A DNA stretch of 64,000 bases. It comes from a virus. This document shows, piece after piece, positions 5,059 through 18,166 of this stretch. A model generated the notes under the pieces. The model was not told the origin of the DNA, made no database searches, and worked only from the letters and a program-made list of their open reading frames with translations. The position numbers and the translations under genes are program-made. How positions within the stretch are numbered: the stretch's first letter is position 1; each line of letters starts with the position of its first letter. The stretch covers positions 1-64,000 of IMG/VR virus record IMGVR_UViG_3300042516_003452; one strand, 5' to 3'.

Positions 5059-5220
5059 TCAATCAGGTAACGCTTGAAACCAGAAGACAACACCACCCTG
5101 TTCTTCTACCCAATCACGAGTTGCAAGTGCGTTGTTCTTATGTAGAGTAACGCATTTTTTTTCGCCGTTAACTTCCCAGCACATGTTGACACGAATGTGC
5201 GGATCTTTTTTGCATTTCAT
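5059..5220 (-). CDS. Small Cys-containing 53-aa protein
   Basis: The start ATG at 5220 overlaps the stop codon of the lysin gene (ATGA), which decides the start over a longer in-frame extension. The product, beginning MKCKKDPHIRVNMCW, has three Cys and a beta-rich look. Unknown function; translationally coupled to the lysin, so it may be a lysis accessory. Confidence 0.6.
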   Translation of the reverse strand: MKCKKDPHIRVNMCWEVNGEKKCVTLHKNNALATRDWVEEQGGVVFWFQALPD

Positions 5221-6323
5221 TTCGACACAAGAATCGCCCAGCCTGTGTTCTTCCCGTCGCATTCCCAGCGCCTGAGCCAGTTCTTACGGCTGTACTGTAC
5301 TGCAGTGCCTCGCTTGCGATCATTGCTGACATAACCACCACTGACCATGTCGGCCTCCCCGTTGGGATCATGGAAGACAAAAGAAGTTGGCGTAAAACCA
5401 ATGCAGCAGGTCCAGTGGCCACCACCTGTTGGATAAGAAACACTGCCTTTGTGTAACCAGCCGACTGCTACAGGCCTGCCGTTACGAATTTCATTTTCTA
5501 GTAACGCAGCATTGCCGTTGGTCACAAACCTGGCTACGAGTCCCAGGCTGCGTAGTGCTGCTAACTGGGCGTCTTTACTTGTTGTATCGCCGTATTTCGC
5601 ACGTATTTTGGAGTATTCGTCATCATTTTTAACCTTACCGTAATAGCGCGCGATCATGGCACACGTTGACGAGAAGCATTCGCGGTACCCAGTGCCAGAT
5701 TGATTATCCAGCTGATACTCATAAGGCACTGGAAGAATTTTCTGAGCTTCAGTCGTTGGAACTGAGCCACCTGGCGTACCAAGTTGACGGTCGAGGATCT
5801 GTATTAATTTTGTACTATAGTCTGGATCCGTAGCATAACCTTCTTTTACTAATAGCTGGCAACACTCATTGCGATTGCTAGCCCTGTTAACGCCTTTGTA
5901 TTTACCAAAGTCTTTGTACCAGCGATCAACCAGGTAAACAATGCAGGTTTCTAAATCAGGAAAATCAATGAAACTTGCGGTGATTGTAATCCACTGACCG
6001 TTGACAAACTCCTTGGTGCTAACAGCGCTACCACTTCCCTTCAGGCCAAATGCGTTCCAGGTACCAGAAAAATGTTTGCCCCAGCCTGACTCGAGTGCCC
6101 ATTGTGCACAAACACATTCAGGAAATTTAGCTCCAGCTTGTTTAGCCGCAGCGTACACACCATCCCAGTTATTGATGTCCTTGGAAGTCGGTTGGGTTCG
6201 GTAACGATTACCAAACTCATCTAATACAGACTTGGGAACAGCTGTTTGTAGCCATTCCCAAGCCTCTCGCTGGTGCGGAAGATCTTTAAAAAACTTTGCC
6301 GCATCAACGAGTTGTATTGTCAT
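5217..6323 (-). CDS. Two-domain lysin: glucosaminidase plus C39-like peptidase
   Basis: A 368-aa protein. Residues ~30-165 form a glucosaminidase (FlgJ/Glucosaminidase family) with CAQWALESGWGKHFSGTWNAFGLKG, where the Glu in ALESGWG is the expected catalytic residue. Residues ~195-368 form a papain-like C39 peptidase domain. It has the Cys motif ECFSSTCAMIARYYG, the His in GGGHWTCCIGF and the Asp in FHDPNGE. It should cut both glycan and peptide bonds of peptidoglycan, as a tail-associated lysin or endolysin. A second lysin (GH24) is at 17002. It sits downstream of the fibre genes, so a virion role is possible. The small 5059 gene is coupled to its stop codon. Confidence 0.85.
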   Translation of the reverse strand: MTIQLVDAAKFFKDLPHQREAWEWLQTAVPKSVLDEFGNRYRTQPTSKDINNWDGVYAAAKQAGAKFPECVCAQWALESGWGKHFSGTWNAFGLKGSGSAVSTKEFVNGQWITITASFIDFPDLETCIVYLVDRWYKDFGKYKGVNRASNRNECCQLLVKEGYATDPDYSTKLIQILDRQLGTPGGSVPTTEAQKILPVPYEYQLDNQSGTGYRECFSSTCAMIARYYGKVKNDDEYSKIRAKYGDTTSKDAQLAALRSLGLVARFVTNGNAALLENEIRNGRPVAVGWLHKGSVSYPTGGGHWTCCIGFTPTSFVFHDPNGEADMVSGGYVSNDRKRGTAVQYSRKNWLRRWECDGKNTGWAILVSK

Positions 6324-16046: not shown

Positions 16047-16391
16047 ATGAACCACGCAGCTGCATTCCTCGATGCGTTTGTTCAAGACGAGGTTATGTGT
16101 CGGTGTCTTGACGAAGAAGACTTCGGTCAACCTCTCGCTAACGAAGAAAATGATGTACCCTTGTATGACATGTACAACAGGGGTTTAGTTGCATGCGAAC
16201 AAGGACTCGAACGGAATCCGTTATTCTTGGAGGGGATGAAGCGTCCGGGAGTGACCGGATTGATTCCTTCGATGGAAGAGGGATTGGCAATGGGAGCTTC
16301 TCCGAAGCCCCGGTCTTTAGTTTTGGAACTGGAGGAACCGGACGAGCAGGAGAAGATGTTGTCAGCAAAACGTCTTGGTTTGCTCCGGTAG
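16047..16391 (+). CDS. Unknown 114-aa acidic protein
   Basis: Starts MNHAAAFLDAFVQDEVMCRCLDEED. It overlaps the DUF3310 frame by 199 nt in a different frame. The overlap has the -1 relation, but no canonical X-XXY-YYZ slippery heptamer was found in the shared stretch. Its amino-acid usage looks natural, so it is likely a real gene. Confidence 0.55.
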   Translation: MNHAAAFLDAFVQDEVMCRCLDEEDFGQPLANEENDVPLYDMYNRGLVACEQGLERNPLFLEGMKRPGVTGLIPSMEEGLAMGASPKPRSLVLELEEPDEQEKMLSAKRLGLLR

Positions 16392-16687
16392 ACGAAATTA
16401 GTGAGTGCCCAGGTGGGGTTTGTCCTGTTCCCTGGGCCACTAAAGAAGAGTCTCCCGTGATCCAGGGAGACGTAGTCAATCATCCGTCTCATTACACCGA
16501 TGGTGCAATCGAGTGTATTGAAGGAATTGAAGCTCAGCAGACCCTTGAAGAATTTCGTGGTTATCTCAAGGGTAATATCGTCAAGTACCTTTGGCGTGAG
16601 CGTCACAAAGGTGGGCTTGAATCACTGAAAAAGGCCCAGTGGTATCTGGACCGTCTCATCCAGCTTGACGAAGCTCAGAACGGCTGA
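16193..16687 (+). CDS. DUF3310 protein
   Basis: The C-terminal ~62 residues (from VNHPSHYTDGAIECIEGIEA, then FRGYLKGNIVKYLWRERHKGGLESLKKAQWYL) are a clear DUF3310 domain, common in phages and sometimes annotated as a nucleotide kinase; its activity is not established. The ATG at 16193 gives 164 aa but a low-complexity first 80 residues read over the neighbouring gene. A GTG at 16456 would give just the domain. Which start is used is open. Confidence 0.75.
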   Translation: MRTRTRTESVILGGDEASGSDRIDSFDGRGIGNGSFSEAPVFSFGTGGTGRAGEDVVSKTSWFAPVDEISECPGGVCPVPWATKEESPVIQGDVVNHPSHYTDGAIECIEGIEAQQTLEEFRGYLKGNIVKYLWRERHKGGLESLKKAQWYLDRLIQLDEAQNG

Positions 16688-16983
16688 AAATCTTCTTCTT
16701 CGTCGTCGTCCTCGTCGTCGCCTTGAATACAGGCGGCGGCGAGTTCTGCTAATTCAAGATCAGTCGGCCAGTCCATATCCAGCTCAATGTTTTCACCTGC
16801 CATGATGTCCTTGATGGCGTGCCATTCCATCAGGCGTTGGTGATAGAGATTCAGAAGAGCTGAGTACAGTTCTTCCCATGTCATCTCTTGGGCCTGGAGT
16901 TCTGCTTTCCGCATGGCGAATTGCAGTTCAAGTGGCAGTTCAAACTCCCGTGGTTCTACCGATCGCTCCATGCCACTTTGCAT
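16675..16983 (-). CDS. nblA: NblA-like phycobilisome degradation protein
   Basis: A 102-aa protein. Residues 15-61 align without gaps to NblA: the pattern E-L-x-L-E-x-Q-F-x-x-R-x-x-E-x-Q...M-(S/T)-x-E.....L..LY.Q........K(E/D) is met by FELPLELQFAMRKAELQAQEMT, then LLNLYHQRLMEWHAIKDI. NblA is a small two-helix adaptor that brings phycobilisomes to Clp protease, and freshwater and marine cyanophages are known to carry it. Unlike the ~60-aa host form it has an acidic tail (DDEDDDEEED). It lies 18 nt downstream of the GH24 lysin on the same strand, so it is probably a late gene. Met5 is an alternative start. Confidence 0.68.
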   Translation of the reverse strand: MQSGMERSVEPREFELPLELQFAMRKAELQAQEMTWEELYSALLNLYHQRLMEWHAIKDIMAGENIELDMDWPTDLELAELAAACIQGDDEDDDEEEDFQPF

Positions 16984-17001: not shown

Positions 17002-17667
17002 CTAATGGTAGCTGCTAAACAGCAAATCGATATCGTCTGTGTCGTAAGTCGACCAGGGATCCTCATCGATATCAAAGTCGTTCGCGAATTTGGATAGGAC
17101 GTACGGATTGACATTTTCCTCCAGTGCACGGATGGCGCGCACCTGGTGAGGAGCAGCGGTGTAATTACGAAAAGCAGTCAGGAGGACTTGGGTCGAGGCC
17201 CAAGGGTTTGCATTGATCTCAGTCAGGAACAGACTAATTTCCTCTCGCCTGCGGTCCACAAGGGTACCAATGACGTTGTGGTTTTGATCAAAGATCCAGC
17301 GTCCAAGTTCTCCAGTGGCAGCACAGAAGTCTTCGTGTTCGATGTTGTCGATCACGCTGCTGTACAAAAAAGGATCCCAACCGATGGAATGAATAAATGA
17401 AATTAAAGCCTGACGCATGTGTGTATCAAGCCCCAGGTTCAGTTTGACCAGCTGGGTGTCAATGATGGAAACTTCGTGAAAAAGGTATTCCAGTGCCTTC
17501 TCCTTGGTACAGCACTGGCCTCTTTTGACGGGAGAACCATCGGGGTAGAACTGAGTTCCAAACCCGATGGTATAAGGTTCTCCGCCTGTGGTCGGATCAG
17601 GGTATGCCTTTTCGTTGAACCCTTCGTATTTACGAATCAGGTTAATCGCATGCGAAAGATCCGACAT
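17002..17667 (-). CDS. GH24 endolysin (T4-lysozyme type muramidase)
   Basis: From ATG 17667 the product is 221 aa. The start KYEGFNEKAYPDPTTGGEPYTIGFGT holds the catalytic E...D...T layout of GH24 enzymes (Glu in KYEGF, Asp in YPDP, Thr in PYTIG). The C-terminal ~80 residues extend beyond the usual ~160-aa enzyme and end acidic. It cleaves the glycan of peptidoglycan for host lysis. A TTG at 17691 could add 8 residues. A perfect hairpin lies immediately before the ATG (separate entry). Directly downstream is the NblA-like gene. Confidence 0.85.
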   Translation of the reverse strand: MSDLSHAINLIRKYEGFNEKAYPDPTTGGEPYTIGFGTQFYPDGSPVKRGQCCTKEKALEYLFHEVSIIDTQLVKLNLGLDTHMRQALISFIHSIGWDPFLYSSVIDNIEHEDFCAATGELGRWIFDQNHNVIGTLVDRRREEISLFLTEINANPWASTQVLLTAFRNYTAAPHQVRAIRALEENVNPYVLSKFANDFDIDEDPWSTYDTDDIDLLFSSYH

Positions 17668-17689: not shown

Positions 17690-17703
17690 AATATACATAA
17701 CTT

Positions 17704-17826
17704 TTACTTGCCTTGGCCACGAGACAATTTACGTCCGTGGTTAGGACGAGAATGTTTCCCGTCACCTTGACGTGTCTTCTTAGGCTTGGACTCGATCTGA
17801 ATGGTGCTGGACTTGGGTTTTGCCAT
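17704..17826 (-). CDS. Small basic conserved cyanophage protein
   Basis: A 40-aa protein starting MAKPKSSTIQIESKPKKTRQGDG and ending RKLSRGQGK. The SKPKKTRQG.GKH...RGQGK pattern is one I associate with small cyanophage proteins of unknown role (from memory, not searched). Strongly basic, so it may bind DNA or RNA. Confidence 0.7.
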   Translation of the reverse strand: MAKPKSSTIQIESKPKKTRQGDGKHSRPNHGRKLSRGQGK

Positions 17827-17863: not shown

Positions 17864-18166
17864 TCACCATTTCGTTTTATGGCTCCAGTATCTTGCTGAC
17901 ATTTTGTCAGGATTGGGGTCTTGGGCGTTGTGCCGTGCGTAATAAGACTTCTTCCGTGCTTTATCTTTCTCAGTCTTGGGGTTCTTGCCAGCACCTTCTA
18001 CGCCTTGTTGACCAAAGCGAATGATCTTTTCTTCTCCTCCTTCACAAGCTTTGACGACGTGAGACTTGGTTGGGTGGCCAGGAGTCTTCTGTGGCTTGTT
18101 ACAAGCCATCTTGTCCTTAGCAATCTTGGCTGCACCAGCAGCTTTACGGTGTTTCTCAGCCATCAA
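17864..18166 (-). CDS. Conserved basic 100-aa cyanophage protein
   Basis: Contains ACEGGEEKIIRFGQQGVEGAGKNP, then KARKKSYYARH and MSARYWSHKTKW. This is a pattern I associate with a conserved cyanophage family of unknown function. It overlaps the 897-aa gene by 4 nt, so it is co-translated with it. Confidence 0.75.
   Translation of the reverse strand: MMAEKHRKAAGAAKIAKDKMACNKPQKTPGHPTKSHVVKACEGGEEKIIRFGQQGVEGAGKNPKTEKDKARKKSYYARHNAQDPNPDKMSARYWSHKTKW

Follow-up and report, generated by a model that had tools for sequence, protein, structure and literature searches.

A divergent NblA-like gene downstream of the lysozyme gene in S-EIV1-type phages

A 102 aa open reading frame on the minus strand of the window, the 64,000-nucleotide stretch of DNA analysed here (part of an 84,492-base virus record), appears from sequence comparisons to be a divergent NblA family member specific to a phage lineage, and the homology is well supported. 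NblA is a small protein of cyanobacteria that marks their light-harvesting antenna for degradation. The frame extends over 16983..16675 including the stop codon and has an ATG start. The window is collinear with Synechococcus phage S-EIV1, with 65 frames matching at E <= 1e-5, including some overlapping shadow frames. The features of the locus are listed below.

16675..16983, minus strand: NblA-like gene, 102 aa, final gene of the late (structural and lysis) block; from the ORF, Pfam NblA, the family profile and dN/dS
16801..16941, minus strand: NblA core, residues 15-61; from the Pfam match and AlphaFold2 helices at residues 18-32 and 36-63, separated by a turn
16723..16761, minus strand: extra predicted helix, residues 75-87; from the AlphaFold2 model and P73, E77, L78 and L81, conserved in 60 homologues
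16678..16719, minus strand: acidic disordered C-terminal tail, residues 89-102, with terminal FQPF; from low pLDDT and the tail composition of homologues
17002..17667, minus strand: lysozyme (endolysin) gene; PF00959 E 4e-17, PHROG endolysin E 3e-28
16193..16687, plus strand: convergent DUF3310 gene, which marks the end of the late block; PF11753 E 7e-19

Relationship to NblA

Residues 15-61 of the predicted protein align with profile positions 1-47 of Pfam NblA (PF04485) at E 4.6e-5 and 24.2 bits (curated cut-off 25), and the alignment is gapless, as the initial annotation had described for approximately 47 residues. A six-frame Pfam search of the record returns the NblA match at 25.3 bits, above the cut-off of 25, and when homologues are scanned jointly 22 of 22 match Pfam NblA at E <= 0.1, the best at E 2.8e-6. 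The initial annotation had tied its assignment to the NblA thresholds of Pfam. The window protein sits at the cut-off, but the S-EIV1 homologue alone scores 16.3 bits, well under 25, and a Pfam scan of two more distant members (L180 and L189) gave no NblA match.

A profile built from 33 cyanobacterial NblA sequences gives the ORF 29 bits; the highest score among 2000 shuffles is 9.9 bits, and the runner-up among the 825 stop-to-stop frames in the window has 4.3 bits. With a score this far over the shuffles and all other frames, the Pfam match is not due to chance. Profile-profile comparison using hhalign of 60 phage homologues with 20 canonical cyanobacterial NblA sequences gave E 7.3e-9 and a probability of 95.8 over 57 columns with 30% identity, and the top match of the family profile in the PDB is NblA itself (1ojh, E 3.7e-4). 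Taken with the chance test, these two results are the grounds for the homology, and the earlier identification as an NblA homologue is upheld. A PHROG search with the ORF produced one chance-level match.

The AlphaFold2 model of the full protein consists of the two core helices joined by a turn, the further helix and the disordered tail listed above; the core modelled alone has a mean pLDDT of 91. Canonical NblA is a helix-loop-helix protein (PMC4103541; PMC7966870), and the predicted core has the same layout. Foldseek searches using the full and core models returned no NblA structure; short helical hairpins are poor Foldseek queries. A different predicted fold had been named in the initial annotation as grounds for rejecting NblA. 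The helix-loop-helix is indeed predicted, but the structural search did not recover NblA, and the predicted fold is compatible with the family and not decisive.

The late gene block and linkage to lysozyme

The minus-strand block runs from approximately 46.1 kb down to the NblA-like ORF and includes the genes for terminase, portal and major head protein. Judging from this gene order, the NblA-like gene would belong to a late operon, and late expression of its product is plausible. The lysozyme stop at 17002 and the NblA-like ATG at 16983 are separated by an 18-nt gap, so that the placement of the gene 18 nt behind an endolysin was correctly annotated, and the lysozyme itself is real on the strength of its PF00959 match. 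The lysozyme gene has an ATG start at 17667, with a TTG start at 17691 likewise open. On the other side, the 3′-end of the convergent DUF3310 gene overlaps the NblA-like gene by 13 nt. A terminator-like hairpin 3′ of the NblA-like gene (16652-16633, minus strand) is not claimed, as a similar hairpin occurs in only 11 of 80 distinct downstream sequences and the hairpin lies within conserved DUF3310 codons. A promoter scan found one weak match, no better than chance.

Three further genes of the window were noted. A 40 aa, very basic ORF (17704-17826, minus strand; MAKPKSSTIQIESKPKKTRQGDGKHSRPNHGRKLSRGQGK) lies between the lysozyme gene and the gene at 17864-18166, and was overlooked with the 60 aa ORF cut-off; the counterpart position in S-EIV1 carries an annotated gene of similar size, AHV82243 (126 nt). 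The gene at 17864-18166 (minus strand), two genes upstream of lysozyme, predicts a basic 100 aa protein belonging to PHROG 7595 (unknown function; E 2e-29). This protein is conserved in S-EIV1, and the DNA around its gene resembles Puniceispirillum and roseobacter phages too. At 5217-6323 (minus strand), a 368 aa protein with a papain-like/C39 cysteine peptidase domain C-terminal to an N-acetylglucosaminidase domain, shared with S-EIV1 at 64%, is probably a second wall-degrading enzyme.

Relatives of the gene occur commonly in viral contigs, with at least 296 and at least 579 confirmed stretches in two scans and 26 in a third, the three scans overlapping one another. In loci picked by the NblA-like gene, lysozyme is directly upstream in all 98 that have room for it, and the convergent DUF3310 gene is downstream in 99 of 99. 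An unbiased test of the linkage was made using loci picked by lysozyme alone and then checked for an NblA-like gene behind it. Applying a distance rule, the NblA-like gene was next in 113 of the 117 loci. Two of the four misses (L436 and L448) carry the gene, with scores of 162 and 160 bits, and were missed only because of an earlier open-frame start, and the remaining two have lysozymes only 24% identical to the S-EIV1 query. Hence, all 115 related loci picked in this way have the NblA-like gene behind lysozyme, and the gene is a core gene of the S-EIV1-type lineage rather than a sporadic auxiliary gene. The core is also under strong purifying selection, with dN/dS of 0.02-0.10 between the window and six relatives with estimable dS, although these values are rough, synonymous sites being near saturation.

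Departures from canonical NblA and possible function

Members of the canonical NblA set compared are 55-82 aa long, mostly 62-65 aa. To this, the phage family adds a conserved region with the consensus D-x-P-T-D-L-E-L, followed by the helix and the acidic tail, which in the window protein is GDDEDDDEEEDFQPF. Among 54 distinct homologues, 7-14 of the last 18 residues are acidic and most sequences end in xPF. None of the canonical NblA or picocyanobacterial NblA-like proteins in the comparison has this tail; its absence from host NblA, asserted in the initial annotation, is therefore real, and the tail is conserved across the phage family.

In published descriptions of NblA, the motif for ClpC binding is N-terminal and the one for phycobiliprotein binding is C-terminal (PMC4103541). 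The window protein retains the N-terminal E-L-x-L-E-x-Q-F-x-x-R pattern, including the equivalents of L7, E10, F13 and R16, with the E10 equivalent being Q or H in some homologues. The canonical invariant Q11 is L in the window protein and L or M in the phage family. The near-invariant K53, in the phycobiliprotein-binding region, is replaced by A62 in the window protein and is not K in the family consensus, and the FLKHxWG region is absent from the window protein. The better retention of the N-terminal motif and the loss of K53 suggest that the phage family keeps more of the ClpC-binding than of the phycobiliprotein-binding region.

These features are best explained, with moderate confidence, by a ClpC adaptor that brings about phycobilisome degradation at a late stage of infection. 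The protein would be a small adaptor whose helix-loop-helix core contacts both phycobilisome proteins and ClpC, a chaperone of the host, after which the Clp protease would degrade the antenna. It would most likely be made late, since its gene has a constant place closing the structural and lysis block. Late breakdown of the antenna would release amino acids for virion assembly and lower light absorption, and would perhaps help to dismantle the cell interior ahead of lysis. The initial annotation had set late expression against nutrient scavenging, but this need not follow, as late breakdown could equally supply virion assembly with amino acids. The added helix and acidic tail would probably replace the lost C-terminal contact, which the extension may supply, or tune ClpC or phycobiliprotein binding; any particular role for the acidic tail is speculative.

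Binding to ClpC and phycobiliproteins and the breakdown of the antenna are ascribed to the window protein from knowledge of the family, and the changed C-terminal region weakens the ascription. The changes at Q11 and K53, the homologues that fall under the Pfam threshold or have no NblA match, and the Foldseek searches without NblA also count against such an antenna-degrading adaptor. Furthermore, Prochlorococcus has no phycobilisomes (PMC7439483), and if any members of the family have Prochlorococcus hosts, the target there must be something else.

The first alternative is that the core still binds ClpC while the extension recruits another substrate, such as a host protein of defence or the envelope, or a phage protein that has to be cleared before lysis, or that the acidic tail inhibits ClpC and so spares phage proteins. 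The N-terminal half being better kept than the phycobiliprotein-binding region with its lost lysine, the new conserved helix and tail, and an absolute lysozyme linkage that suggests a lysis-stage task all fit such a redirected adaptor. However, Q11, in the presumed ClpC motif, is changed too, the substrate is purely hypothetical, and the phage NblA proteins for which tests are reported act on phycobilisomes (PMC9602691), making this alternative unlikely. A wider proposal, which is tentative and rather unlikely, is that in the S-EIV1 lineage NblA is a fixed late-lysis gene instead of an optional metabolic gene, and that the lost C-terminal motif and the acidic tail mark either a ClpC adaptor with a new target or one that works as the cell is lysed, as opposed to a host NblA copy that simply scavenges.

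Alternatively, the product could be a lysis-associated protein, for example a lysozyme regulator, that has nothing to do with antenna breakdown and resembles NblA merely through its short helical hairpin. The absolute linkage to lysozyme fits such a protein, as do the members with no Pfam NblA match and the Foldseek result, but convergence is an unlikely source of a profile match at E 7e-9 with 30% identity, gapless over nearly all of canonical NblA, or of NblA being the top match in both Pfam and the PDB, and this explanation is improbable. It is very improbable that the protein is made late, packaged in the virion via its acidic tail and injected, setting off antenna breakdown as the next infection begins: a late-block gene for a small, highly acidic protein would suit this, but a packaging signal is not known and the gene lies beside lysis, outside the head and tail genes.

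Relatives in cyanobacteria and other phages

Pfam NblA was detected above the cut-off in 60 of 77 genomes of the cyanobacterial class, and in only 2 of 300 Cyanobium-family genomes, one of which carries a phage-type gene. Scanning 400 Cyanobium-family genomes with the phage profile gave a single match, in the picocyanobacterial genome G113 (E 8.5e-24), and a separate scan of genome contigs using the phage alignment found no relative. The G113 protein is 49% identical to the S-EIV1 protein over 68 aa and, at 26.5 bits, is over the Pfam NblA cut-off. Its 8.2 kb contig also encodes trigger factor, a rhomboid protein and a PD-(D/E)XK nuclease. The gene (L327:5402-5710, G113:C41) starts 13 nt after a gene for a 152 aa protein with no Pfam match, near the PD-(D/E)XK/Cas4-like nuclease, and a search of viral contigs with the G113 homologue found no relative.

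Picocyanobacteria have divergent NblA-like proteins, one of which is reported for Synechococcus WH8102 (PMC7439483), and these proteins (alignment A3) show profile similarity to canonical NblA. However, they show no detectable closeness to the phage family (hhalign probability 1.8%, E 0.027) and form a separate clade, and are therefore not an evident source of the phage genes. In the tree, the S-EIV1-type proteins and the G113 protein form one clade (100/99), apart from the picocyanobacterial type (100/99). The tree has few columns and long branches, and only these two clades were used; most of the other deep forks lack resolution. Two Cyanobium-family NblA-like ORFs, in L328 (G029:C3) and L274 (G282:C12), group loosely with the podovirus type, and these contigs may be phage contigs within the assemblies; the G029 contig is 42 kb, about the size of a podovirus.

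The host of S-EIV1 is a Synechococcus, and the hosts of S-EIV1-type phages generally are probably picocyanobacteria. As NblA was found over the Pfam cut-off in so few Cyanobium-family genomes, the phage may bring an activity that its host holds only in divergent form. In marine viromes, S-EIV1-like phages are reported to rank in the top five cyanophage groups by abundance (PMC5332604). If their core gene dismantles phycobilisomes, antenna destruction would be an obligatory step throughout the lineage, and the picture of phage NblA as an auxiliary gene carried only now and then would have to change. As S-EIV1 has been isolated in culture, both timing and activity are testable.

The closest known counterpart is S-EIV1 AHV82245.1, annotated as 'hypothetical protein', which is 68% identical to the window protein over 81 aa and shares its acidic tail and its place between lysozyme and the convergent gene. 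A survey table for marine cyanophage genomes lists hli and ptoX for the S-EIV1 group, and not nblA (PMC5332604). A tree in PMC9602691 that is based on Nadel includes a cyanosiphovirus, and the S-EIV1 gene may already be in the Nadel et al. 2019 data set.

NblA is known from the phages Ma-LMM01, MaMV-DC and PaV-LD, marine metagenomic phages, 14 podoviruses and S-TIM5, and heterologous expression of some phage NblA proteins causes phycobilin loss (PMC9602691). For the freshwater phages Ma-LMM01, MaMV-DC and PaV-LD, NblA expression and phycobilin loss have been reported (PMC9602691, PMC4103541). Every highly conserved NblA residue is present in NblA of Ma-LMM01 (PMC4103541), and this published description sets it apart from the window protein, which does not have the full set. 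A tblastn search of phages with a canonical NblA fragment gave no match.

The cyanopodovirus NblA-like proteins are also phage-borne, with S-SRP01 QPD06442 scoring 25.2 bits, at the Pfam NblA cut-off, but they occupy a branch of the tree separate from the window family. In the two podoviruses examined, the NblA-like gene lies by the exonuclease, MazG and ribonucleotide reductase genes, a replication block unlike the setting of the window gene. Two podovirus genes (QPD06442 in S-SRP01, L332:4052-4270, and QBP05830 in S-B28, L331:4073-4234) encode hypothetical proteins and overlap the exonuclease gene. The annotated 53 aa frame of S-B28 looks truncated, as the frame runs further upstream with an NblA-like pattern.

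Compared with cyanobacterial NblA (PF04485, e.g. 1ojh), the phage protein aligns gaplessly over a core of 47-57 residues, but the window protein is 102 aa instead of approximately 62 aa, the difference including the extra predicted helix (residues 75-87) and the acidic tail. NblA in phages is already known; the version in this lineage, with its acidic tail and its constant place closing the late gene block, has been annotated only as a hypothetical protein.
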